NCBI GenBank assembly: GCA_026398275.1
Contig: JAPLTF010000016.1
Location: 1-51,659, forward strand
Origin: Verrucomicrobiota bacterium
GTDB taxonomy: Bacteria; Verrucomicrobiota; Verrucomicrobiia; Chthoniobacterales; Terrimicrobiaceae
Direction: 5' to 3'
DNA: 51,659 bases
Part shown: positions 19,452-35,009 of the stretch, one piece after another
Layout: each line of letters begins with the position of its first letter
Position numbering within the stretch: position 1 is the first letter of the stretch
Translations under genes and position numbers: made by a program
The notes under the pieces: generated by a model
Told to the model about the DNA's origin: nothing
Seen by the model: only the letters and a program-made list of their open reading frames with translations
Database searches by the model: none

Positions 19452-21221
19452 TTAAGCGGGAGAAAGAAGCACGCAGACCAAATCACCAGCGGCACTCTCG
19501 ATCACCCGGGAATTCCCCATCGTTGAGAGCGATTGAATGATCCCCTTGGCCTTATCCGGAAATCCGCTCCGGTTGATCAGGATCGCCTGGAACCCGAGAC
19601 CGCGCAGCTTGGCCACGGCAGCCTCGAGCGTGAGGCCGGCGAGATCCTTCTGCCATTGGGTATCCTCCCGACCTTTCATGGAACCGAAGGAAAAGCGGAG
19701 GCTTTTGCTGAAAAGATACGGCCTCAGGTGGTCGTAAGGCGAGAGTCCGGCGATTGGCGTCTCGGGGAATTCCATGATGGGAAGTTGGAAAACCATCGCG
19801 CCGGGAGGCAGCGCTGCTTCCATCTTCTCGACGATTTCCTGATCGGACTCGATCTGGAATGCCACTAGCTCCCTCTCCTTGAGATCCGGAGGACGGGGAA
19901 CCTGATCCCAAAAAACCAGTGTGGCTGCCAGAACCGCCAGGAGCGATGCAAACCCGCTCCGAAGCCGCAGAGAAGACAGCCAGCGGGCCGCAAACATCAG
20001 CACGATCGCCAGGATCACAACGCTGTAGCGGCATCCGGTCCGGAACATCGTGAACCCCAGCGCGCCCGCGATGGCATTCAATCCTCCCGTCGTAAAAACC
20101 ACCAGAATCCAGGAAACCTGCCAGGCCTCGATCGGGATCTGCGCTTTCCGGATGAACGCCGCCACCGTTGTAAAAATCAGGAGCGCCAGGGAAAGAAGGC
20201 CAAGGATCCCGAGATACGACCCCTCGTCCTGCAACGGGGCTCCGGTGCGGTGCTGGAACGCAAACCCCGCAAGAAGATCGGACCGGTGCGTGATCGGCGG
20301 CACCACCAGATCCACAATCTTCAGCCCGTAGATCTCGAGCCATTTGTATTCCCTCACAACGGCACCAATATTCGGACCGTGAACAAGCCGGTAGGTCCAC
20401 GTGTCGAGATTCATGAGCCCAAACGCCAGAGCAGCCGCCAGGATGATTCCCAAACAGGCCTGCAGGGTCGGAACCGAGCGCGTCCGGATAAAGACCGCCA
20501 ACCCACCGAGAAGGGTCAGTTGGCAGAGAATGTTCGTGTAGTAGACGTTCTGCGTGCCGGCAAGAAACGCGATCCCCGCGGAGATCCAGAACCGCCTCGA
20601 CCAGGGCGCGATCCCCGCTCCTGTCGAAATCCACCGCCAAACCGGAATAAACAGCGGCACATGCCAGACAGCCGCAACCGTGATGTGGTGCGGCGACTCG
20701 GTAAATATAAATGGGGCCAAGCCGTAGGCGAGCGCCCCCACAAAGCTCCATTTTTTCTCACAGCCGGAAAACCTTGCCACTCCATAAAAGACGCCCGCAG
20801 CCAGCAGGTGACAGATCAGAAGGCTGAGGTTCAAACCTGCAAAAAGTCCGAATACCCGCGCCAGCACCCCTTCCACAAAGAGCGGAATTTCCTCGGTGAT
20901 CGGATAGTCGTTCCAATTTGCACCACCCGGCGCGCCGAGCTCGGGAATATTTTTCCAGAGCAACGGGAGGAAATGCCCGTCCGATGCGGCCTTTATCCCG
21001 GCCAGCGTTCCGAGAATGTCGGAGGTGACGGGAGCGGAGTAAGCCGAGGGCTGCTGCCAGGAAAGCGCGTCCCACTTCGCATTGGCGGCACACCATGAAA
21101 AGACGACGGCTGCGAGCAGAAGTGCCAAGGCACCCAGTTCATTCCACGTGCAAAAACCAGCGGGGCGCGGATTGTTAGAATCGGGAGTGCTGGTTTCCAA
21201 TGGGGGGTGAGACATGAACAA
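19452..21221 (-). CDS. Multi-pass membrane protein (GT-C-like, hypothetical)
   Basis: 589 residues with about 11-12 membrane helices between residues 25 and 430, then a soluble domain of about 150 residues. The first extracytoplasmic loop has SDILGTLAGI and later NWNDYPITEEIP, acidic positions typical of GT-C glycosyltransferases. The tail holds PPGAMVFQLPIMEFPET and LRPYLFSKSLRFSFG. It lies 67 bases after the radical SAM gene and may be the distal gene of the glycan operon. Start could be ATG 21221 or 21215. Transfer of a sugar from a polyprenyl carrier is an inference. Confidence 0.75.
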   Translation of the reverse strand: MFMSHPPLETSTPDSNNPRPAGFCTWNELGALALLLAAVVFSWCAANAKWDALSWQQPSAYSAPVTSDILGTLAGIKAASDGHFLPLLWKNIPELGAPGGANWNDYPITEEIPLFVEGVLARVFGLFAGLNLSLLICHLLAAGVFYGVARFSGCEKKWSFVGALAYGLAPFIFTESPHHITVAAVWHVPLFIPVWRWISTGAGIAPWSRRFWISAGIAFLAGTQNVYYTNILCQLTLLGGLAVFIRTRSVPTLQACLGIILAAALAFGLMNLDTWTYRLVHGPNIGAVVREYKWLEIYGLKIVDLVVPPITHRSDLLAGFAFQHRTGAPLQDEGSYLGILGLLSLALLIFTTVAAFIRKAQIPIEAWQVSWILVVFTTGGLNAIAGALGFTMFRTGCRYSVVILAIVLMFAARWLSSLRLRSGFASLLAVLAATLVFWDQVPRPPDLKERELVAFQIESDQEIVEKMEAALPPGAMVFQLPIMEFPETPIAGLSPYDHLRPYLFSKSLRFSFGSMKGREDTQWQKDLAGLTLEAAVAKLRGLGFQAILINRSGFPDKAKGIIQSLSTMGNSRVIESAAGDLVCVLLSPA

Positions 21222-21288
21222 ATCGTCGGTTCCAAGCGGCAGTCTGCGCTGAAACTGCGAAAAAAACCAGAGCTGCGATCCAGCTAAT

Positions 21289-22350
21289 TCACTTCACAAA
21301 ATCCTCTTCGCTGAACACCTCGGTCCAGGAGATCGGAAGTTCCTTTCCGTAGGATTTGGCCATGTAATTCTTGATGAAGTTGCGGTCCTCGCTCGACAGG
21401 CACAGCCGGCTGTAGTTCTTGAACCACTTGATGCTCTGCCCGAGTTTGATCGCCTCCTCGAGCGTGCCGGTGAAGACATTTCCGATGCCGATGTGGATGT
21501 AGACGCAGGGCATGATGTCGCCATACTGCGTGATGTGCAGCGTGGAATGCACGGCCCCGCAGCCTTTGTCCATGCCGTAGGCGGGCCACACATCGCGGTG
21601 GAGCACCGGATACTCCTTGTGGGCCGCGAAGAGGTAGTCCTCGTCTTCGGGGGTGATCAAGACGTCGTATCGGCCCTCCCAGGACCCGGTGGGACGGGCG
21701 GCGAGAATGTCCACGGTGTAGTCGTTCTCCGTGGCGAATTTCGCCATCTCGATGATCTGACCGGTCTGGCAATTCTGATGGGTCACGCAGGTCTGGACGA
21801 CCACGCCCATCCCCGCTTCCCTGGCATTCGCCATGGCGGTGATCGCCTTGCCGTAGGCACCCTCGCTGTGCCGGTTCGCGTCGTGCGCCTTCGGGTCGAA
21901 ATCGTCCAGGCTGATCTTGACCTTGTCGAGGCCCAGACTTTTCAGGTGTTTGGCCTTTTCCTTGGTCAGAAAGTGCCCGTGCGTGCTCATCGTCAGGTGG
22001 AACTTGTCTGGCTGGAGCGCCAAAATCACCTCATCCAAATCCTTGAAAACCGTCGGCTCCCCGCCGGAGATGCAGAACTGGGCCAGCCCCAGCGAATCCG
22101 CTTCGTCGCTGATCCGGCGAAGATCCTGCGGAGTCAGGATCCGCTCCCCCTTCGGCCTCATCCACCTCCCGCGCCACGCAGTGCAATGGCTGCAGCTCAG
22201 ATTGCAAATATAGCTGTAGGCGATATCGATAATCGGCGTCGCGATCCCCCGGCTGTGCCGGTCGGAAATCTTGATGATCTTGTCGTAAACCAGGGGCTTT
22301 TCGCTCCGGAGTTTTTCCCGTTTCGCCTGCTCGATTTGCTGGAGTGTCAT
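21289..22350 (-). CDS. Radical SAM protein (first of two in the glycan operon)
   Basis: 353 residues from ATG 22350. The cluster motif is CNLSCSHC (Cx3Cx2C) near residue 50, followed by ISGGEPTVF, the SAM-contacting GGEP. The C-terminal part has further cysteines (DKGCGAVH, DIMPCVYIH, SRLCLS) that fit a SPASM or twitch extension holding a second Fe-S cluster. A TTG start overlapping the upstream stop (TTGA at 22389) is possible. Substrate unknown; in this operon a sugar or lipid-linked sugar modification is the natural guess, for example C-C bond formation, epimerisation or dehydration. Confidence 0.85.
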   Translation of the reverse strand: MTLQQIEQAKREKLRSEKPLVYDKIIKISDRHSRGIATPIIDIAYSYICNLSCSHCTAWRGRWMRPKGERILTPQDLRRISDEADSLGLAQFCISGGEPTVFKDLDEVILALQPDKFHLTMSTHGHFLTKEKAKHLKSLGLDKVKISLDDFDPKAHDANRHSEGAYGKAITAMANAREAGMGVVVQTCVTHQNCQTGQIIEMAKFATENDYTVDILAARPTGSWEGRYDVLITPEDEDYLFAAHKEYPVLHRDVWPAYGMDKGCGAVHSTLHITQYGDIMPCVYIHIGIGNVFTGTLEEAIKLGQSIKWFKNYSRLCLSSEDRNFIKNYMAKSYGKELPISWTEVFSEEDFVK

Positions 22351-22385
22351 TTTGTTGATGCAAGTTAAAAAGCTTCTGCGGGAAG

Positions 22386-23411
22386 TCAACGAATACCTCG
22401 GAACCGGGCCAGATAAATAAGCCCGCCGGGAAGCGACCAGAGGAGTTCGTTCGCAACCATGAGGAGCGAGAGGGACACCACAAACTCGGCCGCACCGCCC
22501 GCCCCTCCGGATGCCGGAAGGATGTGGAGCACTTGAAAATAGTAAATCAGGACGAGCTCGCGCAGGCCGTGGCCGTTGACCGTGATCGGTACCATCATGA
22601 GCACCAGCAGCACGGGCAGGAAGATCAGCGTGTCCGCATAGGTGATCGAGAATCCGAGAGCGCGGGAAAACAGGAAAAACAGAAAGAATGAAAAGAGATG
22701 AATTCCGAATGAAAGCGAAAAGCCTGCTGCCAGCGTGCCTCCCGGCCGCACGCCCGTTTTCATGGCTTCAACAAACCTGAAAACCTGCGCACGCACGGGC
22801 AGGCGGTGCCGCAAAAAATATCCGAGCACAGCCAGAAGAACAAGAACCCCGACGGAAGCAACCGGAAGCCACGGCGGCAGGTGCCAGCCCTCGGGAAGTT
22901 TCGGGATCGGCTGGCGGAGAAGCGAGGCTCCCGCCAGCACCAGCAGCGCGGCAAGCGCCACAAGCCTGTCCACTACCACGCTCGCAACCGCCCCCGCCTT
23001 GTGGTGCGGCGAGATGCGGCAGAGATGGAAGATTTTGACAAAGTCCCCCCCGGTGTTGCCGGGAAGAACGGTGTTGAAAAACTGGCCGGCCCACGTGAGA
23101 AAAAAGACGCTTTTCCCGGACACGGAGATTCCCTGCTGGCGGATGAAAAGATGCCAGCGCATGGCGAGGAGGAATACCGGGAGGATCGTCAGGGAGGAGG
23201 CGATTGCCAAAAGCCGCCAGTCGGCATGTCTGAGAATTCTTTCCACGGACAACCAGTCGAGCTTCCTAACCACAAGCCAGATCATCCCGACGGATGCAAC
23301 GGCACGGAGGATGAAGAACGCATTTTTTCTGAGGCCGGAAGCATCCGGGACATTCCGATCACAAGCAGTGGAATCGGCCCCGGCTTCCTCGTCCCCTGGC
23401 GCGGACTTCAT
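22386..23411 (-). CDS. Flippase-like integral membrane protein (LPG-synthase TM / UPF0104)
   Basis: 341 residues with about eight membrane helices. The family signature of the lysylphosphatidylglycerol-synthase membrane domain is visible: WHLFIRQQG, LTWAGQFFNTVLPGNTGGDFVKIFH and PITVNGHGLRELVL. Members without the aminoacyltransferase domain are thought to move lipids or lipid-linked sugars. It overlaps the C-methyltransferase gene by four bases (ATGA), supporting a role in exporting the product of this operon. Confidence 0.88.
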   Translation of the reverse strand: MKSAPGDEEAGADSTACDRNVPDASGLRKNAFFILRAVASVGMIWLVVRKLDWLSVERILRHADWRLLAIASSLTILPVFLLAMRWHLFIRQQGISVSGKSVFFLTWAGQFFNTVLPGNTGGDFVKIFHLCRISPHHKAGAVASVVVDRLVALAALLVLAGASLLRQPIPKLPEGWHLPPWLPVASVGVLVLLAVLGYFLRHRLPVRAQVFRFVEAMKTGVRPGGTLAAGFSLSFGIHLFSFFLFFLFSRALGFSITYADTLIFLPVLLVLMMVPITVNGHGLRELVLIYYFQVLHILPASGGAGGAAEFVVSLSLLMVANELLWSLPGGLIYLARFRGIR

Positions 23412-25291
23412 CGGCCGTCGCCCGTGATTTCCAGCCGGTTCTCTCTCAGGATGGCAACGGTGATCTGCGAGCCGTGCTCGCGGGCGATGATATTCGCGAC
23501 CTCGTCGGAATAGCTCGCCGCCATGACGATCACCGCCTCAACGGGATCGGATACAAGGGCTGAGGGAGGAACGACCGGCAGGTGCGTTGCGGGGGTGAAT
23601 TTTCCCTGTTTAAACGGCGCGGAGTCGACCACGTAGCGGATGGAGGAGGCAATCCCCGAAAGGGCGAGAACCGCCAGCGCCTGATGCCCGGCTCCCCAAA
23701 CGGCAACCCTCCTCTCGGGATACCCTGCGACAAATTTCGCGAGCTCCTGCGAGATCGTTTGCTGGCAGCGGGAAAATTCCGACAGGTCGAGCGGCTCGCG
23801 TTTCCGCACAGCGACCGAGAGCACGTAGTCGTCGCGCAATTCCTCCGTCCCGATCACGTCAAAACCATTCCACCGCAGCGTCGAAAGAAGCGTCTCGCGC
23901 GAAAAATACAGGAGGTGGTCGGAGATAAATTCCGAGAACAGCCGCTCGCGGACCATCATGTCGAAATTCGGGACCTCGATCAGGCCGATGCCACCCGGCA
24001 CCAACTGGTCCCGGATTGCGCGAAGGGAAGCGCCCGGGTCGGGCATGTGCTCGAGAAACATCAGGAGAAAAAATGCGTCGAACGGACCGCCTGGAATATC
24101 GCCCGAGGCCGCATCGGGGTATCCCCGCGAAACCTGCAATCCGGACTCCCTGCAATGCCGGACGGCCTCCTCGGAAAACTCGATCCCGTGCGCCTCGACC
24201 GGCAGTTGGTGAAGGATCGAAAGAAACTCGCCGCGGCCGCAGCCGATCTCGATCACCTTTTTCCCCGTCAGCCCGTGTCGGCTGATAAACTCCGCAAACT
24301 GCCGGCGCTTCGCTTCGGAAAGCACTTGGGAGATCCCGGCGGCGCGGATCACCTCGCGGAAATATGGAACAGGTTCCGCCTCAAGCTGAACAAGTCCGCA
24401 CCCGGAACACTGGTAAATGTCCAAATCCACGCCTGCGTCAGCGGGCGCGTCGGAGAAAGGAGCGCGGGCGTCCCGCCCGCTTGGGGATCCGGATGCGGGC
24501 GGGACGCCCACGCTCCCGTGGCCGAGAGTGAAGCAACCGTTGCCTAGACGGGCCTTTTTGGGGTTGTCATGGATGTAGGCGAGGCACGCGGCGAAGTGGC
24601 ATTCGTTCCGGATAAGACGGTCCCAGTATTCGTGCTGCCAAAGTGGTCCGGTTTTTCCAAGGGACTTGTTGATCGCCTTTGCCGTAAAACTTTTCCACGA
24701 GTGCAGGATGTCGGGAAGCGCGAACTCCAGCCCCAGCTTGAGAAGGACATGCACATGGTTCGGCATGATCACATAGCTCACGAGATCGTAGCGTTCAGAG
24801 TCAAAGCGGGCCAGCGCATCGCCAACGATTTTTCGCAGGGCAGGATTCAGGAGCAGACAGGATCCGTGCCCGGCATCGAGCCACTCGTCGAGACGCGAAC
24901 TGAAAAGCTCATGGTACTCCCGCTCAGTTGCCTCATCCCAAGGCCTCGGGTGGTCTTTGAGCCAGGATTCCCGGGTGAGGCTCCACTCGTCGAGTTTGGC
25001 CTTCGGCAGTGCGTCGTCGAGCCGCCATGTGACAAAGCAGAAGCAGTCGGATTGGCTCCAGTGAGGAAGCTTGTGTTTGGTGACGCCGGTGTCATCGAGA
25101 GGATTGAAGAAAGGAGCGCGGGCGTCCCGCCCGCTTGAGGAAACGGATGCGGGCGGAACGCCCACGCTCCCGTCGGGGGCCGGGATGGCATCCGGAAACC
25201 CCTGCGCAGCGGCGGGCATGTTCCGGTAGCTCAGGAGCGGTTCGGGAAAGAGCGGCTGAGCGCAAACCCGGCAGTTCTTCGCGGCGCTCAT
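23408..25291 (-). CDS. Sugar C-methyltransferase with an in-frame RAYT transposase inserted
   Basis: One open frame of 627 codons. Residues 1-40 hold the first zinc pair (CRVC, 7-10) of a three-domain C-methyltransferase. Residues about 41-279 are foreign: repeat-encoded GVPPASVSSSGRDARAPF, then a RAYT (KLPHW at 74; HVH at 179-181; catalytic Tyr candidate in AYIHDNP at 239), then GVPPASGSPSGRDARAPF. The host resumes with the second zinc pair (CSGC, 295-298), the SAM loop VIEIGCGRGEF (346-356) and the C-terminal domain (VWGAGHQA). Without the insert it would be about 388 residues, close to the family norm. Both ends overlap neighbours by four bases. The host probably methylates a keto-deoxy sugar; whether it still folds is open. 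Confidence 0.85.
   Translation of the reverse strand: MSAAKNCRVCAQPLFPEPLLSYRNMPAAAQGFPDAIPAPDGSVGVPPASVSSSGRDARAPFFNPLDDTGVTKHKLPHWSQSDCFCFVTWRLDDALPKAKLDEWSLTRESWLKDHPRPWDEATEREYHELFSSRLDEWLDAGHGSCLLLNPALRKIVGDALARFDSERYDLVSYVIMPNHVHVLLKLGLEFALPDILHSWKSFTAKAINKSLGKTGPLWQHEYWDRLIRNECHFAACLAYIHDNPKKARLGNGCFTLGHGSVGVPPASGSPSGRDARAPFSDAPADAGVDLDIYQCSGCGLVQLEAEPVPYFREVIRAAGISQVLSEAKRRQFAEFISRHGLTGKKVIEIGCGRGEFLSILHQLPVEAHGIEFSEEAVRHCRESGLQVSRGYPDAASGDIPGGPFDAFFLLMFLEHMPDPGASLRAIRDQLVPGGIGLIEVPNFDMMVRERLFSEFISDHLLYFSRETLLSTLRWNGFDVIGTEELRDDYVLSVAVRKREPLDLSEFSRCQQTISQELAKFVAGYPERRVAVWGAGHQALAVLALSGIASSIRYVVDSAPFKQGKFTPATHLPVVPPSALVSDPVEAVIVMAASYSDEVANIIAREHGSQITVAILRENRLEITGDGR
24455..24519. repeat. 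Palindromic repeat, family A copy 1
   Basis: GGAGCGCGGGCGTCCCGCCCGC at the left pairs with GCGGGCGGGACGCCCaCGCTCC at the right across a short spacer (TTGGGGATCCGGAT). On the minus strand it is read through as GVPPASGSPSGRDARAPF. It has the same length and orientation as copy 2. Confidence 0.9.
25109..25173. repeat. Palindromic repeat, family A copy 2
   Basis: A direct copy of the 65-bp palindrome at 24455, differing mainly in the spacer (TTGAGGAAACGGAT) and one arm base. It marks the N-terminal edge of the RAYT insertion and is read as GVPPASVSSSGRDARAPF on the minus strand. Confidence 0.9.
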
Positions 25292-26247
25292 GCGTCCGGG
25301 TTCGGGAAGTTGATCGTTTCCTCAATAACGGCCAGCGGGCGGCTCTTCACCTGGGTGAGAATGGCTCCGACGTATTCTCCGATGATCCCGATGAAGATGA
25401 GCTGGACGGCGGAGAAGAAGAACACCCCGATGATCAGCGGAGCCAGGCCGAGCGTGAACGTGTCCCAGTAGAGGAGCTTGTAAACGAGATAACCCAGGGC
25501 GAGCAGGAGGCTGATCCCGGCGATCAAAAACCCGCTGAACGTCGCCAGCCTGAGCGGAAGCTTCGAGTGGTTGATCACCCCGCTCATCGCCAGATCGTAA
25601 AGCGACAGGAAGGCGTGCTTGGATCTTCCCTGCTTTCTCTCCGGCTGCTCGAACGGAATCTCCGCACGCCGGAATCCGATCTCGCTGACAAAGCCGCGAA
25701 GATAGGGAACCGGGTCCCGGTAGCGCCGCAGGACGTTGAGGAAAACGCGGTCGTAGAGACCGAAACCGGTGAAATTCTGGATGACTTGGTCGGTGTCTGA
25801 TAAAAAACTCAAAACCTTGTAGAAACACTTTCGGGCGAAAAAAATCACAGGCGTCTCCCGGCTGGACGCCTTCACGGCCACGACCACCTTGAACCCCTCC
25901 TCCCATTTCCGGATCATTTCCGCAATGAGCTCGGGAGGATCCTGAAGATCGCAGGCCATCAGGATCACCGCGTCACCGGTCGCGAGCAGAAAGGCGTTGT
26001 ATCCGGATCGCACCGGACCAAAGTTGCTCGAATTGAAAATCACCTTCAGGCGGGAATCCGCCGCCGCGAGGCTCCTCAGGATCTCCCGCGTCCTGTCGGT
26101 CGAGCAGTTGTCTGCAATGATGAGCTCGTAGGCATAGCCGGGAAACTCCGACAGAACCTTGGTGACGCGGGAGTAGTAGTCCTCGACGTTGCCCTGTTCG
26201 TTGAGGCAGCCGGTGACGATGCTGATCTTTATTTTATCCGGTGTCAT
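25288..26247 (-). CDS. Family 2 glycosyltransferase with two C-terminal membrane helices
   Basis: 319 residues. Residues 5-230 form a GT-A domain: SIVTGCLNEQGNVEDY start, IIADNCSTDRT, and ACDLQDPPELI (the DLQDPPE metal/nucleotide site typical of DPM1/ArnC-type enzymes that charge polyprenyl phosphate). Two helices at about 235-300 anchor it in the cytoplasmic membrane. It probably links a sugar to undecaprenyl phosphate for the GT-C-like proteins nearby. Overlaps the next gene by four bases. Confidence 0.92.
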   Translation of the reverse strand: MTPDKIKISIVTGCLNEQGNVEDYYSRVTKVLSEFPGYAYELIIADNCSTDRTREILRSLAAADSRLKVIFNSSNFGPVRSGYNAFLLATGDAVILMACDLQDPPELIAEMIRKWEEGFKVVVAVKASSRETPVIFFARKCFYKVLSFLSDTDQVIQNFTGFGLYDRVFLNVLRRYRDPVPYLRGFVSEIGFRRAEIPFEQPERKQGRSKHAFLSLYDLAMSGVINHSKLPLRLATFSGFLIAGISLLLALGYLVYKLLYWDTFTLGLAPLIIGVFFFSAVQLIFIGIIGEYVGAILTQVKSRPLAVIEETINFPNPDA

Positions 26248-26257
26248 GACAAGTGGG

Positions 26258-27313
26258 CTAGCCCGCCCCGGTTATCGGTTCTGAAACGGAAGCCCGGAGG
26301 AGCTTCTCCACAGGAAATCCGTCGACCGTATCCTTGGTGTAATGGTTGCTGCGGTAGATATCACAACGGGCACAGGAAGGGTTTTCGCGCATCCGGCTCT
26401 CGAGATGCATCTTTTGAAACTGATACCATTCCTCGGAATGCCACAGGTCCTGCAGCGACCTCTGATCGACATTGCCGAGGTTTGTCCCGCCGATGAAGTC
26501 CACGCAGCACGGCGAAACGTCACCGTTTGCCCGGACGGCCATCGTGGTGAACGGCATCGGGCATGCGGTGCGCCGGGTGCTGTTCGTCAGGAGATCCTCC
26601 TTGGCGCGGGCGGCATCCTCCCCGTAATAGCCCTCGATAAAATCCTTCTCCTTCACCCGGATCCAGCCATGCGGCTTGTCCAGATAGACCTCGTCGGCGA
26701 CCGGCTTGAACAGGTCGAGAAAAACCTCGTTGTCCGCAGAAAAGGTGTCCAACGTTTTGCAGCTCACAAAAGGATGCTCGCTCGACATCCGCCGCTTGAT
26801 TTCCTGGAGGGCTGCCAGGTTGTCGCGGATGGCTTCGAGGTGCGTTCGCGAGCCGGTGACGGCCTCGTGCTTTTCCTGGGTGGCCCCGTAGATGGAAACC
26901 CGTATGTAGTCGAGCCCGGCGGCGACGAGTTGTTCCGAGATCGCGGGCTTGAGAAGCGATCCATTCGTCGTCATCTCGACACGCTCGGCGACGCCGGAGG
27001 CCACCGCCAGCCGCGCCATTTCCGGAAAATCCGGACTCACGAGCGGCTCGCCGTAGATGGTGAGTTTGAGGACCTTGATCTTCGGCCCGCTCCAGGATGC
27101 GAGCTGATCGAGCACGCGGCGGAACCGCTCGAGCGGCATGTTGGCTTTGGTCTCGGAGAAATACGACTTCTCCTTGAGGCTCTGGAAGCACTGGACGCAG
27201 CGGAAATTGCAGAGGCCTGAAGGTTCGATAAGAACCGTGAACGGCTTCTGCAGCGGCAGAACTTCGAGCAGGTTGTGCCGGTTTGTCTTGTGAAGCTCGG
27301 TATACTTGATCAT
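26258..27313 (-). CDS. Radical SAM/SPASM protein (second in the glycan operon)
   Basis: 351 residues from ATG 27313, whose ATGA overlaps the fkbM-like stop; eleven upstream codons of the open frame are ignored. The cluster motif is CNFRCVQC (Cx3Cx2C). The C-terminal SPASM region carries CPMPF, SPCCVDF and CARCDIY, enough cysteines for an auxiliary cluster. IYGEPL replaces the usual GGEP, which is common in this branch. Targets of SPASM enzymes range from peptides to sugars; here a sugar or aminosugar is likelier. It and the 21289 gene differ enough to act on separate steps. Confidence 0.87.
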   Translation of the reverse strand: MIKYTELHKTNRHNLLEVLPLQKPFTVLIEPSGLCNFRCVQCFQSLKEKSYFSETKANMPLERFRRVLDQLASWSGPKIKVLKLTIYGEPLVSPDFPEMARLAVASGVAERVEMTTNGSLLKPAISEQLVAAGLDYIRVSIYGATQEKHEAVTGSRTHLEAIRDNLAALQEIKRRMSSEHPFVSCKTLDTFSADNEVFLDLFKPVADEVYLDKPHGWIRVKEKDFIEGYYGEDAARAKEDLLTNSTRRTACPMPFTTMAVRANGDVSPCCVDFIGGTNLGNVDQRSLQDLWHSEEWYQFQKMHLESRMRENPSCARCDIYRSNHYTKDTVDGFPVEKLLRASVSEPITGAG

Positions 27314-28473
27314 GCGGTAACATCCTCCGGAGGGAGCGCGTAGCAAACGGTTTCGTATTCGAGCTTGGTGTGGTGCCTGAGAAAAATCCGGTATTCCGGA
27401 ACGAGGCTCTTGATGAACAGCGGGATTTCCCAGAGGTCCTTGAAGTGGTGGTAGACGCAGATGGCCAGCTTGGGCTTGTTGGCGAGGATCGTGCCTCGCG
27501 CGCCTTCGAGGGCTTTGAGCTCCGCCCCCTCGATATCCATCTTCAGGAGGGTGACCCGCGCATCGCCGATGAGGTCGTCCAGACGGGCGACATGCCCCAG
27601 CGCATCTCCGGCCCCAATCGTGCTCTGGGAGAGCTCAACGCTGTAGGAGATATCGAGCGGCTCGTTCCAGAGCCCCTCCGGATGAAGGAAAATTTTCTCC
27701 GCCCCCGGAAGTGCGGACACCGTGGATTGCAGGCCTTCAAAATTCGCCGCATTCAGCTCGAAACAGTGCATCGAATCGAAGCTTCCATCCGTGCGCCTGA
27801 TAAAATCGCAGACCGTGTCTCCGGTGAATGCCCCCGCATCCACAAACGACTCGTCCGGCTTCAGCCGGATGAGATCGGCCGGAAAATACTGGTCCCCCTC
27901 GCAAACCCCCGCCATGAGGCCCGGAGCGCTTCCGGCATCGAGCAGCCTGTCGAGCGTGGCATCGAACACCCGCACCGAGCGGTCATCCGCAAGAAGGGCG
28001 CGGACCGCCTCCAGCTTCGCCGCCACCTCATCCAGATTCTGCCGGGACAAATAGTCCGAGCTGACAAGATCGTATTTGTAGATCAGGTGGACGCAGGGGA
28101 ATTTCTTTTCGGCGAGAAAATCCAGAACGGGCTCGAAGTCGCCGACGGTCACGAAGACGGCTAGTTCGTCTTTGTATTTTTCGAGTTCGGATGGGGGGAT
28201 GCATGTGACGCCAGAGTAGACCTTGCCCCATTTTTCGGGATTCGAGTCGCAGCAAAAATCGATGTTCCGGCCCACGAGTTCGCGCCAGGTTTCGGCGATG
28301 CTGCCGAAAATCGCCCCGCAGCCATAGAACGCGACGAACCGGCTCGCCGCAGTCATCGCCAGAACTTCCGCGCGGTAGTTTCGCCGCGCCGCAAGGAGTC
28401 GGGCAATACGTTCCGGGGCGGCGGGATCCGGCTGGCGAGAGGCGGGGATCAGTTCAGGGGCAGGCATGTTCAT
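27310..28473 (-). CDS. FkbM-family methyltransferase
   Basis: 387 residues. The C-terminal half is the FkbM domain: FVDAGAFTGDTVCDF (SAM loop), HCFELNAANFEGL, LLKMDIEGAELKALEGA (family signature) and an ending YETVCYAL. FkbM enzymes O-methylate sugars and polyketides. The N-terminal ~190 residues contain a Rossmann-like stretch (VAFYGCGAIFGS, FVTVGDFEPVLDFL) that could be a nucleotide-binding or reductase-like module. It overlaps the ThDP gene by 20 bases; an internal ATG at 28467 is an alternative start. Confidence 0.88.
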   Translation of the reverse strand: MNMPAPELIPASRQPDPAAPERIARLLAARRNYRAEVLAMTAASRFVAFYGCGAIFGSIAETWRELVGRNIDFCCDSNPEKWGKVYSGVTCIPPSELEKYKDELAVFVTVGDFEPVLDFLAEKKFPCVHLIYKYDLVSSDYLSRQNLDEVAAKLEAVRALLADDRSVRVFDATLDRLLDAGSAPGLMAGVCEGDQYFPADLIRLKPDESFVDAGAFTGDTVCDFIRRTDGSFDSMHCFELNAANFEGLQSTVSALPGAEKIFLHPEGLWNEPLDISYSVELSQSTIGAGDALGHVARLDDLIGDARVTLLKMDIEGAELKALEGARGTILANKPKLAICVYHHFKDLWEIPLFIKSLVPEYRIFLRHHTKLEYETVCYALPPEDVTA

Positions 28474-30286
28474 CGTTGTCTAGGGCGATCATGTTCGCCC
28501 GGAGCTCTTCGGGCGGCAAATACGGCCACATATCTTCGAGCGGTTTCGAGATCATGCTGCCCTCGGGGGTTTTCATGGACTGGACGCGGGGGGCGGTAAC
28601 CTGGACTTGGGAAACCCGGATCACGCAAAGCGCGGGATCGCCTCCCTCAAGTGTGCGGGCGATCGCGCCGGAAAGGTCTTCGTATGTTTCCGCCCGTTCC
28701 GTGCGGATGCCGTAGGCGCTGGCGATGGCGGCGGTGTCCGGCATGGTGAGACCGCTCGACATTCCCGAACCGACATAAAATCCGCCGAAGAGATTCCGCT
28801 GCGTGGCCCGGATGCTGGCGTAGCCGTCGTTGTCTAGAATGAACATTTTAACCGGGAGCCCGAGGCGCGAAAGCGTTTGGAGCTCCTGGATGTTGAGCTG
28901 GAATGCGCCGTCGCCGTTGATGAGGATCGTGCGCTTCCCGGTCGTCAGGCAGGCCCCGATCGCATACGGCAGGCCGAATCCCATCGAGCCAAGGCCGGCC
29001 GCATTTTTGATTTGCTGGCCTTTTTTGACACGGATCGCCTGGTAGGTGATCTCACCGGCCGCGCCGGAGCTTTCCGGCGTGATCACATCATCGCTCGTGA
29101 GATGGTCGCTCAGCACATCGGTAAAAACATAGAGGTCAATGCTCTCGCCGGGTTTCCGGTATTCCTCGAGCACGACCGGATAGCGGGCCTTGAGGTTGCG
29201 GGCGTAGGCCAGCCATGCTTGGCGGCTGGACGGGAGCGCGGGCATCTTGCCCGCTTCTTCATCATGCGGGCGGGACGCCTGCGCTCCCAGCAGGGCGCGC
29301 AGGAATTCCCCGGCGTCAGCAACAACCGGCACATCCGCCCGCCGGATTTTCCGGATTTCCGCCTCGTCGATATCCACCATGACCAGTTTGGCATGCGGTG
29401 CGAACCCGGCGGAGTTAAATGCGGTGATGCTGGGCTCGAGTCTGGAGCCGATCACCAGCAGGAGGTCGCAATTCTGCACGAGAAAATTTGCAGTCCGGCA
29501 TCCGATGATCCCCGGGCTCCCGAAATTGAGCGGGTGCGAGTGGTCGAGAAAATCCACCGCCTTCCAAGTGAGGACGAGCGGAATTTCTTCCGACTCGATG
29601 AGCCGGGAGAATTCCTCCACGGCCCCTGCGAGTTTGATCCCGTTGCCGGCGAGGATGAGCGGGCGCTTGGCGGCGGCGAGCAGGGCGGCGACTTCGGAGA
29701 TTTGAGCGGCGGAAGGTGCGGGTGGGTGGTCGCAGTCCGGGACAAAGCCTTCCAGCAAGTTCGGCTCAATCGTGGCGGCCTGAACATCGAGCGGGATGTC
29801 CAGCCATACCGGGCCCATGCGGCCGGTCGTCGCGAGATGCCAGGCCTTTTCGACGTGAAAACGGATGCTCTCCGGCTCGATGACGGTCACGGCGTATTTC
29901 GTAATCCCCGAAACCATCGAGACGATATCGACTTCCTGCGATCCCATCTGCCGCACGCCGCTGTCGGCCTTCAGGTCCTGCCGCTTGCATTGCCCGGAAA
30001 TCATGAAGACCGGAGTCGAGTCAAAATAGGCGGCGGTCACGGCGGTCACGGTATTCGTCGCGCCGGGGCCGGAGGTCACGAGCCCGACCCCGGGAAAATT
30101 CGCGAACTGTCCGGCGGCCTCGGCCGCGATCGCAAGCGCCTGCTCGTGCAGGAAGCACGTGTATTCGATCCGCCCGCTGCGCCCGAGTGAATCGTCGAGG
30201 TGCATGGCCCCTCCCCCGGTAAGAACGAAGACGCGCTTGACGCCCTTGTCCGCGAGAAATTCGAAGATGTAGTCGGAGAGCTTCAT
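28454..30286 (-). CDS. ThDP-dependent enzyme, acetolactate-synthase-like, with an in-frame palindrome
   Basis: 610 residues with the three-domain layout of acetohydroxyacid-synthase relatives: the catalytic Glu in FLHEQALA (residues about 45-52), the central domain, and the ThDP/Mg motif GDGAFQLNIQELQTL...DNDGYAS. It is not part of an ilv operon; in surface-glycan operons such enzymes can add a two-carbon unit to a keto-sugar (the yersiniose enzyme YerE is the model). Residues about 333-352, AQASRPHDEEAGKMPALPSS in one-letter code, are encoded by family A repeat copy 3, making the protein longer than usual. Overlaps the phosphatase gene by four bases. Confidence 0.88.
   Translation of the reverse strand: MKLSDYIFEFLADKGVKRVFVLTGGGAMHLDDSLGRSGRIEYTCFLHEQALAIAAEAAGQFANFPGVGLVTSGPGATNTVTAVTAAYFDSTPVFMISGQCKRQDLKADSGVRQMGSQEVDIVSMVSGITKYAVTVIEPESIRFHVEKAWHLATTGRMGPVWLDIPLDVQAATIEPNLLEGFVPDCDHPPAPSAAQISEVAALLAAAKRPLILAGNGIKLAGAVEEFSRLIESEEIPLVLTWKAVDFLDHSHPLNFGSPGIIGCRTANFLVQNCDLLLVIGSRLEPSITAFNSAGFAPHAKLVMVDIDEAEIRKIRRADVPVVADAGEFLRALLGAQASRPHDEEAGKMPALPSSRQAWLAYARNLKARYPVVLEEYRKPGESIDLYVFTDVLSDHLTSDDVITPESSGAAGEITYQAIRVKKGQQIKNAAGLGSMGFGLPYAIGACLTTGKRTILINGDGAFQLNIQELQTLSRLGLPVKMFILDNDGYASIRATQRNLFGGFYVGSGMSSGLTMPDTAAIASAYGIRTERAETYEDLSGAIARTLEGGDPALCVIRVSQVQVTAPRVQSMKTPEGSMISKPLEDMWPYLPPEELRANMIALDNDEHACP
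29231..29289. repeat. Palindromic repeat, family A copy 3 (in frame within a gene)
   Basis: GGGAGCGCGGGCATCTTGCC and its partner GCGGGCGGGACGCCTGCGCT with trailing CCC form the same hairpin as the copies around the RAYT, in the same orientation, with a spacer CGCTTCTTCATCAT. It replaces no stop and keeps the ThDP enzyme frame open. Confidence 0.8.
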
Positions 30287-30765
30287 CGCGGGGTTGCTGC
30301 CTGGCCACAGAGGCCGAGATGGTCGAGGGCCTCGCGCACGGCCCCGCGCCCGCCGCCGGCCTTTGCCACAAAGTCAGCCGCTTCGAGAACGAGCGGGTGG
30401 GCGTCGGATGGCGCGGCGGAAAATCCGGCGAGGGCGATGGCAGAGAGGTCGTTGACGTCGTCTCCGACGAATCCGATCTCCTCAAGCGGAAGGCCTGTGG
30501 ATTCCGCAAATTCCTTGAGGGCATCGGCCTTGTTCCTGCAGGCTTTCCACACGAAGTTGATCCGCATTTTCTCCGCGTAGCGGTCGATCAGCGGCCCGGC
30601 CTCGCCGGTGATCAGCGCAAAGGCAACCCCCGCGCGGGTGGCCAGCGAGATCCCCATGATGTCGCGAAATGAAAACGATTTCGACTCCGCCCCATCCGGC
30701 CCCCAGACAAAGGTGCCGTCGGTCAGCACGCCATCCACATCGAGCGCGATTGCCCGGATCGGCAT
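30283..30765 (-). CDS. KdsC-like HAD phosphatase
   Basis: 160 residues of the C0-type HAD family. Motif I is ALDVDGVLTDG, motif II ITGE, the Lys is in CRNKADAL, and motif III is GFVGDDVNDL. Enzymes of this type remove the phosphate from KDO-8-P or from nonulosonate 9-phosphates. Directly after the NeuB-like gene (one-base TGATG overlap), it likely dephosphorylates that enzyme's product. Confidence 0.92.
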   Translation of the reverse strand: MPIRAIALDVDGVLTDGTFVWGPDGAESKSFSFRDIMGISLATRAGVAFALITGEAGPLIDRYAEKMRINFVWKACRNKADALKEFAESTGLPLEEIGFVGDDVNDLSAIALAGFSAAPSDAHPLVLEAADFVAKAGGGRGAVREALDHLGLCGQAATPR

Positions 30766-31646
30766 CAGGCGCGGCCCCCGACCCGGCGGAGCTTTTTCAT
30801 GACGGGAATCTCGCTGTCGAATACCCGCTTCGTGCTGGAGCCCATGGCCATCTCCACGAGCCGGGTATCGCGCACCAGCCGGGTAAGCCCGCTAGGCCCG
30901 AGTGAAGCCGCCTGGTCGGATCCCCACATCGAGCGCTCGAGCGTGATATGGCGCTCGACCACGCAGGCCCCAAGGGCAACCGCCGCGACCGAGGACGCGA
31001 TGCCGGTCTCATGCCCGGAATATCCCACCGGCACGCCGTAGCGCTTGCGAAGATCCGGAATCACCCGCAGGTCGAGCTCATCGTAATTCGAAGGATACGT
31101 GCTCGTGGCATGGAGGATGACAAGGCCCTCCTTGCCGAGGACTTCGACCGCGTGATCGATCTCCTCAATCGTGCTCATCCCGGTGGAAAGCAGAACCGGC
31201 TTCCCGGCCGCCCGGGTGTGGCGCAGCAATGCGTCGTCGGTCAGAGAAGCGGACGCGACTTTGAAACACGGCACATCGAACTGCGCGATGAAATCCACCG
31301 AGGGCTCATCCCAGCACGACGCAAACCACGGAAGCCCCATCTCCTGGCAGAACTCATCGATTTTCTGGTATTGCTCCAAGCCGAATTCCAGGCCGCGCTT
31401 GAGGTCGCCGTTTGTCGCGCCGAAGGGGTTCTCGCGGGGCTTGGCCAACTCCTCCGCAGTGTAAACAATTTCCACGGTTCGCTTCTGGAATTTCACCGCG
31501 TCGCATCCCGTGTTTTTTGCGACCGAGATGAGGTTCTTCGCGATGTCGAGGCTCCCGTTGTGGTTGATGCCGATTTCGCCAATAATATAGCTCGGCTGCC
31601 CGTCGCCGATGGCGCGCGAACCGAGATGGATGGTGTTGTTGGACAT
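30765..31646 (-). CDS. NeuB-family nonulosonate synthase without SAF domain
   Basis: 293 residues from ATG 31646. The TIM-barrel of sialic-acid-type synthases is clear: YIIGEIGINHNGSLDIA, AVKFQKRT, FDVPCFKVASASL, PVLLSTGMSTIEEI, HATSTYP and GYSGHETG, and HITLERSMWGSDQAASL. The enzyme would condense phosphoenolpyruvate with an aminosugar or its phosphate. The usual C-terminal SAF (antifreeze-like) domain of NeuB is absent. The open frame runs on upstream to 32696, but that part is antisense-like shadow of the epimerase gene. No CMP-sugar synthetase lies in the window. Confidence 0.93.
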   Translation of the reverse strand: MSNNTIHLGSRAIGDGQPSYIIGEIGINHNGSLDIAKNLISVAKNTGCDAVKFQKRTVEIVYTAEELAKPRENPFGATNGDLKRGLEFGLEQYQKIDEFCQEMGLPWFASCWDEPSVDFIAQFDVPCFKVASASLTDDALLRHTRAAGKPVLLSTGMSTIEEIDHAVEVLGKEGLVILHATSTYPSNYDELDLRVIPDLRKRYGVPVGYSGHETGIASSVAAVALGACVVERHITLERSMWGSDQAASLGPSGLTRLVRDTRLVEMAMGSSTKRVFDSEIPVMKKLRRVGGRA

Positions 31647-31744
31647 GGAAAATAGTGGGCGTCGGAAACTTGGGAGGGGGGTGAGAGGCGGTGCGGCTCG
31701 TGCCCGTGCAGGATTGCTTCTGCCCAGGACCGGCGCAAGTTTTT

Positions 31745-32761
31745 TCAGTGGCCCGCGGACGCCCGCAGCCACCTCCATGTCCGCGCAAGCGCCTCCGGAA
31801 ATGGAAGGTCGGGGGCCAGGCGGAAAGCCTGCTCGATCCGCGTGATATCCGGGACGTAGTAAGAAAATCCGGAGCGCTCGCGAAGAATTCGGACTTCCGC
31901 GGTTGGCTGAACCAAAGCAGCGACGGCAGCGGCGACATCCCCAATGCTGAGCTCCTGCGCGGCACCCACATTGTAAGTTCCTCCCGGCTGCCCGTGGACG
32001 AGGATGTGCCACAGCCGCACCGCAAGGTCCGCCGCGTGAAGGTAGGAGCGGATCGGAGAACCGTCTCCATGGACGATGACGGGGCGTCCAGACAAGACGT
32101 CCCGAAGAAAATTTCCAACGGCAAATTGCCCATCGAGCGGAAGGCGCGGCCCAACAAACGCAAACCCCCTGGCAATCGTGACGGGCAATCCGGATCTCGC
32201 AAATCCCGCCTCCCACTGGTCTTCGACCTGTGCGCGGATCCGTGGATAAGACAGCGGATCGCCTGCTCCGAAGCGCGGCCAGTTTTCCAGAATGGGCGAG
32301 CGGGATGGCTTGTAAACGGCCCCGGTGCTGCACAGCAGGCAACCGGCCGAACTCCTCAGCGCCGCAATCTCCAGAAGCCTTCGGGTTGCGAGCTCGTAGT
32401 GCGCCTCCATTTCCTCCAGCGGGGCGGGAGCAAACAGCGAATGCACCACATAATCGACCGGCCCCTCCGGCACCGCCATCGTGGCCGCATCGGACTCCAG
32501 AATCTCCACGCGCGGGTCGCCCGCAAGATGGGGCAGATATTCGGAAAACCGCCGCGCGTCGCGGGTCACCGCAATCGCACGGAATGGAAGGCCCGACTTG
32601 GTCCCCGCATACAGGTAAGATTCCAGCATCCAGCTTCCGAAGAATCCCGAGGCCCCGGTAAATAGCACGCGCTTCCCTTCGAGCCGGTTCCAACATCCGC
32701 CGGCATGATGAAAAATGTGTTCAAGGTCCTCCGGTGGAAGCGGTGGGCTCAACGAGGTCAT
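31745..32761 (-). CDS. NAD-dependent epimerase/dehydratase
   Basis: 338 residues from ATG 32761 (ATGA overlap with the Uma2 stop). Extended SDR features: VLFTGASGFFGSWM (nucleotide loop), STGAVYKPS and YPRIRAQVE, where the active-site Tyr is followed by Arg three residues later rather than the usual Lys (YxxxK). Later come GDGSPIRSYLHAADLA and NVGAAQELSI. Sugar-nucleotide epimerase or dehydratase is the likely role. The replaced Lys, if my reading of YPRIRAQ is right, deserves checking. The 98 bases to the NeuB-like gene hold nothing recognisable. Confidence 0.88.
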   Translation of the reverse strand: MTSLSPPLPPEDLEHIFHHAGGCWNRLEGKRVLFTGASGFFGSWMLESYLYAGTKSGLPFRAIAVTRDARRFSEYLPHLAGDPRVEILESDAATMAVPEGPVDYVVHSLFAPAPLEEMEAHYELATRRLLEIAALRSSAGCLLCSTGAVYKPSRSPILENWPRFGAGDPLSYPRIRAQVEDQWEAGFARSGLPVTIARGFAFVGPRLPLDGQFAVGNFLRDVLSGRPVIVHGDGSPIRSYLHAADLAVRLWHILVHGQPGGTYNVGAAQELSIGDVAAAVAALVQPTAEVRILRERSGFSYYVPDITRIEQAFRLAPDLPFPEALARTWRWLRASAGH

Positions 32762-33354
32762 CTGCCGGGAGGCGCCTCGACTGGCACAAACTCGACCCGC
32801 TCGTAGATCTCCGCGAACGGGATCTCGCATGCGATGGAGGTCAGGTTGACGAAGGCGGTGGGGTCGGTGGTGATGCGGAGGTTCCACCCGCCGTCGGGCT
32901 GGCGGAGGAACTGCTCGACGCGGGGTTCGGATTGCGAGACGAGGACGTATTCCTGCAGCGACGGTAGCGCGCGGTAGAGGTCGAACTTTTTCACCCGATC
33001 GTAGCGCTCGGTCGTCTCGGAGAGCACTTCGACGATGAGGGTCGGGTTCAGGAGCGTGTCGAGCCTGTCGTCCTCGAATCGCTGCTCGCCACAGACGACC
33101 ACGAGGTCGGGATACGTGTAAAGGCCGTTCGCCTCGACCTTCACACGCAGGTCGGTGGCGAAGGGCTCGCATTTTCGGCCTTTGAGCCGGGCGGAAAGTT
33201 CGCGGGAAAGATTCATCACGATCCGGGCATGGTTCTTTGTGGTTCCGGCCATCGCGAAGATCTCGCCGTCGAAGAACTCGCTCTTTGTTTCTGCAGCGCG
33301 CTCGATGGCGAGGTAATCGGCGGCGGTCAGGGACGTTTTAGGAAGCGCGCTCAT
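32758..33354 (-). CDS. Uma2-family protein (DUF820, restriction-endonuclease-like fold)
   Basis: 198 residues. Family features: TAADYLAIERAAETKSEFFDGEI at the start in outline (EFFDGEI), then the PD-(D/E)xK-like core YPDLVVVCGEQ and NPTLIVEVLSETTERYDR, and KFDLYRALPSLQEYVLVSQ. The fold suggests a nuclease, but the cellular role of this abundant family is unknown. It is the first frame of the operon that continues into the glycan genes, probably by chance. Confidence 0.9.
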   Translation of the reverse strand: MSALPKTSLTAADYLAIERAAETKSEFFDGEIFAMAGTTKNHARIVMNLSRELSARLKGRKCEPFATDLRVKVEANGLYTYPDLVVVCGEQRFEDDRLDTLLNPTLIVEVLSETTERYDRVKKFDLYRALPSLQEYVLVSQSEPRVEQFLRQPDGGWNLRITTDPTAFVNLTSIACEIPFAEIYERVEFVPVEAPPGR

Positions 33355-34945: not shown

Positions 34946-35009
34946 AAAGGAGCGTGGGCGGGACGCCCGCAACCGAAAAACCAGCGGGCGGGACGCCCGC
35001 GCTCCCGTC
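34946..35009. repeat. Palindromic repeat, family A copy 4 (intergenic)
   Basis: AAAGGAGCGTGGGCGGGACG...CGCGCTCCCGTC with arms GGGCGGGACGCCCGC repeated in the same direction on both sides of AACCGAAAAACCA. Outer arms pair as in the other copies, but the left inner core is flipped relative to copies 1-3. It lies between the MFS start and the small secreted-protein gene. Confidence 0.8.

Follow-up and report, generated by a model that had tools for sequence, protein, structure and literature searches.

Inteins with homing endonucleases sit in frame in conserved single-copy genes, form lineages resident at a given site, occur as empty and occupied alleles, and spread laterally to the same site. 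IStrons join a group I intron to an IS605 element, and carry a transposase of the IS200/IS605 type into genes without destroying them. Published accounts portray RAYTs as domesticated genes, present in a single copy and inherited vertically (PMC8049555), and as separate genes adjoining their repeats (PMC3733652). In a published model of RAYT repeats, insertion of a copy into a gene is assumed to destroy that gene (PMC8049555). Palindromic repeats in frame within protein-coding genes, tRNA synthetases included, are known from intragenic REPs and from the Rickettsia palindromic elements (PMC3733652; reviewed in PMC10969869), with most intragenic GTAG REPs found in Opitutus terrae (PMC3733652); these insertions are short (some tens of codons) and carry no transposase, whereas at the locus described here a whole transposase forms the embedded domain. 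No report of in-frame RAYTs inside essential genes was found in the open-licence literature searched, an absence that is not proof. A 2018 survey set aside "unexpectedly long proteins", which it took for fused genes or errors of annotation (PMC6006769), and this practice may explain the lack of earlier reports.

The locus lies in a stretch of 51,659 nucleotides (the window) from contig JAPLTF010000016.1 of a Verrucomicrobiota bacterium (assembly GCA_026398275.1). A reading of the sequence alone had proposed that a RAYT is inserted in frame in the zinc module of a sugar C-methyltransferase, within one uninterrupted frame of 627 codons. The frame is confirmed at 23408-25291 (reverse strand), where a methyltransferase of 627 residues carries an intact RAYT; Pfam finds Methyltransf_23 and Methyltransf_14 in the host and Y1_Tnp in the insert, and NCBIfam agrees on the RAYT. 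The first host part (25172-25291, reverse strand) encodes residues 1-40 of the N-terminal zinc module with the first CxxC pair, CRVC at residues 7-10. The second (23408-24454, reverse strand) holds the second pair, CSGC at residues 295-298, followed by the SAM methyltransferase and Methyltransf_14 domains recognized by Pfam. Both parts are bounded by alignment to an empty-site homologue of the kind that the sequence-only reading had suggested looking for, present in another genome (G143, L269:1436-2578, reverse strand) and 44% identical to the methyltransferase of the window. In this alignment the RAYT insert opens a 247-residue gap within the loop that separates the CxxC pairs, and the relative encodes exactly the 380 residues that remain (627 - 247 = 380), bearing out the claim that removal of the insert gives a methyltransferase of normal length; the span first proposed for it, residues 41-279, covers it correctly. 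The alignment supports the view that the RAYT interrupts an ancestral methyltransferase of 380 residues. The surrounding region (21000-33000) resembles a surface-sugar cluster, with a NeuB-type synthase, a glycosyltransferase, an FkbM methyltransferase, radical SAM proteins and a flippase-like protein.

The RAYT domain itself, an HUH Y1 transposase at 24536-25108 (reverse strand) supported by profiles and by an AF2 model, is complete and lies between the two host CxxC pairs, as had been claimed. It has an FFNP entry motif, LPHW at residues 75-78, the HUH pair as HVH at 179-181, and the single catalytic tyrosine at 239, the last two being class features of RAYTs. The NCBIfam model REP_Tyr_transpos matches residues 150-249 at 72.5 bits (E-value 3.2e-20), just under its curated cut-off of 80, against 5.9e-4 for transpos_IS200, which places the insert nearer to RAYTs than to IS200 TnpA. 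The domain has an AF2 model with pLDDT 83, and profile and fold comparisons both give as the best PDB match 4er8, the structure of the E. coli RAYT in complex with a REP hairpin. Structure prediction on the full chain, another suggested check, was confident for the RAYT (residues ~80-250) and not for either linker; the host part, modelled without a host alignment, was uninformative. The locus thus resembles the RAYT/REPtron systems (TnpA-REP, as in 4er8) in the HUH pair, the tyrosine, the fold, and the palindromic repeats on both sides. It is unlike them in that the copies described here occur several to a genome, in frame in coding genes, mostly with no ATG of their own, and with apparent lateral movement. 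Since the window copy, rather than being a free-standing gene, is embedded in a host frame of 627 residues, and since embedded copies mostly lack their own ATG, the enzyme is best classed by its sequence as a RAYT by family, at a locus that represents a variant lifestyle.

Direct copies of a palindromic repeat bound the RAYT on both sides and read through as peptides, again as first described, although the copies prove to be 91 nt long, with a palindromic core of ~58-65 nt. They occupy 24429-24519 and 25083-25173, are 86% identical, and lie 654 nt (3 x 218) apart. On the reverse strand the upstream copy (25083-25173), through its core at 25113-25170, is read as GSVGVPPASVSSSGRDARAP; the downstream copy (24429-24519) is read, at an offset of 654 and so in the same phase, as GSVGVPPASGSPSGRDARAP. 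A 15-mer from the repeat has 65 sites in the source genome (10 for a reversed control), and the repeats are thus both palindromic and dispersed, as RAYT repeats are. The same kind of repeat also occurs in frame with no RAYT. A TPP-dependent enzyme of the same cluster (28454-30286, reverse strand) has such an insertion at 29250-29310 (ends approximate, reverse strand), with the peptide LGAQASRPHDEEAGKMPALP between its central and C-terminal domains (near 29267-29287). Two histidine kinases of the source genome, identified by eye, have repeat-only in-frame insertions in their ATPase domains (L027:2446 and L027:5750). These two kinases, the TPP enzyme, and both repeats flanking the RAYT all present what defines intragenic REPs and Rickettsia palindromic elements, an in-frame palindromic repeat within an ORF; among the repeat-only insertions the reading phases differ. 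Repeat-only insertions were also seen in two further ORFs of the source genome that resemble NADH dehydrogenase subunits, one NuoD-like and one NuoL-like (L028:2376 and L028:8308, by-eye identification). In an apparently intergenic part of the window (34949-35005), two more repeats of this family form a pair whose arms are inverted.

A search of the source genome for this RAYT family yields nine matches, four of them inside host genes: the methyltransferase, a leucyl-tRNA synthetase (1080 codons stop to stop), a DNA methylase (810), and an alanyl-tRNA synthetase (1135) whose RAYT is of a short type. The other five are free-standing or broken and belong by sequence to different subfamilies, so that in this genome the two subfamilies represented by the four occur only as embedded copies, each in frame and on the strand of its host. 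The RAYTs in leuS and alaS fall between neighbouring columns of the host profiles (359 and 363, and 376 and 380, respectively), and a whole-genome search finds these two genes to be the only leuS and alaS present. Leucyl- and alanyl-tRNA synthetases are essential enzymes. The chimeric genes, being sole copies, must therefore be tolerated.

Beyond the source genome, the searches turned up more than 100 additional embedded RAYTs, spread over about 25 host families. Such RAYTs occur in 128 of 197 genomes of the order, and the frames that hold most of the matches listed there span 400 to 1570 codons; when the phylum was sampled more widely, about one-third of the matches listed lay in frames longer than 400 codons. 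A scan of named genomes adds cases labelled Verrucomicrobia, Kiritimatiellota, Planctomycetota, Bacteroidota, Ignavibacteria, Methylomirabilota, Acidobacteriota and Pseudomonadota. A search for RAYTs on plasmids gave no match. In the collection of RAYTs assembled for comparison, which is enriched for long frames, 123 of 168 RAYT ORFs are in frames longer than 330 codons, and a host could be assigned to 114 of the 123 by comparison with representatives (a few assignments were corrected by reading). The main host families, verified by Pfam, are CarB, LeuRS, ValRS (at two sites), AlaRS, RecG, ClpB, Sua5, CCA-transferase, exonuclease VII (XseA), MetH, a DinG-type helicase, adenosine deaminase, a B12-radical SAM enzyme, an ADH-GFO fusion, and many restriction-modification proteins; ThrRS and MqnA were recognized from sequence only. 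For the main hosts Pfam verified host sequence on both sides of the insert, which excludes a chance reading frame. Two single-contig genomes have an in-frame RAYT in their only IspG (GcpE) gene. The proposal that insertion of the element can leave host genes unbroken is accordingly supported far beyond the methyltransferase locus. Three unusual frames may be recorded: a MetH frame that seemingly holds two short-type RAYTs at two different sites (L202; G076:C150), a LeuRS with an embedded RAYT and an extra C-terminal part in an unusually long frame of 2175 codons (L275:800-7324, reverse strand, G343), and a repeat-RAYT unit duplicated in tandem, near-exactly, with the frame kept across both copies (L141:3874-6024, reverse strand, G067).

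Embedded RAYTs are intact and constrained. Both histidines and the tyrosine are retained in 111 of 112, and dN/dS values of 0.04-0.27, from pairs with unsaturated dS, indicate purifying selection. Of 103 embedded copies, 28 have a methionine within 30 residues before the RAYT core, compared with 23 of 28 free-standing ones (p = 3e-7, counting ATG starts only); most embedded RAYTs would therefore seem to depend on host translation. Direct repeats are still present on both sides at 60 of the 121 loci tested. Where these are ungapped, 44 of 47 pairs are in the same phase, though the loci share ancestry and binomial p values overstate their independence. Stop codons in the other frames of the repeat cannot alone account for this phase-lock, since it holds for 36 of 39 pairs whose repeat is open in two or three frames. 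Phase-locked repeats and repeat-only insertions would fit either entry at a repeat already in frame or insertion as an open unit of 3n bases. The in-frame pattern may, however, stem wholly from selection after random insertion, as these counts cover insertions in frame and on the host strand only.

The distribution of RAYTs among alleles of one host gene is best seen in CarB, which is matched in 170 of the 197 genomes, mostly once per genome. At a single loop of CarB, some alleles are empty (~34 residues between fixed motifs) and others have repeat-like peptides only; close to thirty hold a long-type RAYT, and the RAYT in L265 comes from a different, short subfamily. In a further allele (L252) both flanks of the occupied allele are kept and the RAYT core is absent, an in-frame deletion remnant that indirectly indicates that the element can be lost in frame. 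In LeuRS, ten of ten cases fall at one loop of the editing domain, and the RAYTs there belong to three clades. The presence of different RAYT subfamilies or clades at the CarB and LeuRS loops suggests that RAYTs probably entered these permissive sites on more than one occasion.

RAYT lineages tend nonetheless to stay with their hosts. A FastTree phylogeny of 166 RAYTs, in which many branches are weakly supported, has 48 changes of host label where shuffled labels give 112.7, and none of 200 shuffles is as low. The ClpB copies form one group, the Sua5 copies another, and the CarB copies nearly so. Two MqnA RAYTs are nested in the CarB clade and have the same flanking peptides as its members, which is indirect evidence of a jump between these two host genes. 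Host and RAYT distances are correlated weakly for CarB (r = 0.22) and at 0.59 and 0.42 for LeuRS and RecG. In two of three close pairs examined, synonymous identity rises sharply over the cassette: 83/102 against 221/432 for a CarB pair (L176/L177; Fisher p = 1.5e-8) and 137/151 against 280/392 for a LeuRS pair (L144/L147; p = 7e-7), p values that are indicative only, because the pairs were picked (two for low RAYT dS, one as comparison) and the bounds were set after looking. These peaks are indirect signs that the cassette has passed laterally at the same site in both pairs, though ordinary allelic recombination, rather than homing driven by the RAYT, could also produce them. Empty sites, the apparent CarB/MqnA jump, the tandem duplication and the lateral transfer together point, if indirectly, to mobility.

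The sequences themselves show RAYTs that reside in frame, are intact and evolve under constraint, repeats locked in phase, hosts of essential kinds present as single copies, and repeated use of the same sites, and we consider it quite likely on these grounds that a repeat-RAYT-repeat cassette lives in host coding sequences in a splicing-free, intein-like manner, translated with the host while the host enzyme goes on working. The cassette would consist of an HUH transposase bounded by direct palindromic repeats, open throughout and a multiple of three bases in length. Flexible loops would be its points of entry; it would probably use a repeat already present there in frame, and strand transfer by the RAYT or recombination between repeats would bring it in. 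As the RAYTs are intact and in frame inside working genes, we infer a fused polypeptide: the chimera would most likely be made whole, the RAYT being an extra domain or outgrowth on loose linkers encoded by the repeats, expressed from the host promoter and presumably active, with the host enzyme still functional. In an essential host, frameshifts and stop codons arising in the element would be purged along with the host. A lineage would then persist within a single host gene and reach the same site of other species by lateral transfer; at times it would move to another gene, and it could be lost through in-frame deletion. We lean, if only slightly, toward a broader proposal: that widespread autonomous mobile elements exist as unspliced in-frame domains of essential proteins, homing to the same loops elsewhere by means of the HUH enzyme and in-frame palindromic landing pads, with the essentiality of the host guarding their frame.

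The sequence-only reading had raised the prospect of a RAYT domesticated into one biosynthetic operon. More generally, each host might have recruited a RAYT for a DNA-binding or regulatory role, to be kept through host benefit; conserved catalytic residues, purifying selection, and the long residence of lineages in CarB, LeuRS, RecG and ClpB would agree with this. The methyltransferase, however, is an incidental host, one among about 25 unrelated families. With hosts that have no function in common, domestication is improbable as an explanation for the whole set, and it accounts poorly for presence and absence that vary within one genus, for the in-frame deletion remnant, for different RAYT subfamilies or clades at the same CarB and LeuRS sites, and for same-site transfer that looks lateral in some pairs.

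Removal of the segment from protein or mRNA, restoring the host protein, was another early suggestion, and conserved single-copy hosts with site-specific lineages do recall inteins and introns. Yet a search of 23300-25400 for Rfam introns (group I or II, E up to 1) gave no match, nor was any other credible RNA family found over the insert; Pfam scans of the window ORF and the embedded hosts contain no intein domain; the repeat peptides at the junctions vary from one genome to another, and a conserved Cys/Ser ... His-Asn motif is not seen; and a removable RNA would need no open frame across both junctions. Splicing is very unlikely on this evidence, and so is a conserved signal for processing. 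Misassembly, in which repeats lead to RAYT contigs being joined into repeat-bearing genes, is suggested by the repeats at the flanks and by the fragmented drafts that make up most of the genomes, the window's own included. Against it, the same host, site and RAYT lineage recur in dozens of separate assemblies, always in frame, and two of the records with embedded RAYTs, those of Flavobacterium branchiophilum NBRC 15030 (L123) and Pontiellaceae bacterium B12227 (L099), have no metagenome-assembled label. With the two single-contig genomes whose only IspG holds a RAYT, misassembly becomes extremely improbable as a general explanation.

The best reading of the element, from sequence comparison, is that of a RAYT by family that is intein-like by lifestyle, without splicing. 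Embedded RAYTs share with inteins their in-frame, single-copy hosts, site residence, empty and occupied alleles, and same-site lateral spread; they are unlike inteins in that no splicing domain or motif is seen, the enzyme is an HUH transposase, and the linkers are repeat peptides. They are unlike IStrons in that no intron RNA lies over the insert in the window and the frame is open across it. Intact RAYTs inside single-copy LeuRS, AlaRS, CarB and IspG, and also in RecG, ClpB and others, must be tolerated by these hosts, whose genomes carry the labels of several phyla. This changes the view of how RAYT elements persist, and would make them a splicing-free counterpart to inteins. Some annotated housekeeping enzymes, it would appear, carry an intact-looking DNA nicking domain, and embedded RAYTs may serve to mark natural, evolution-tested insertion points in essential enzymes.
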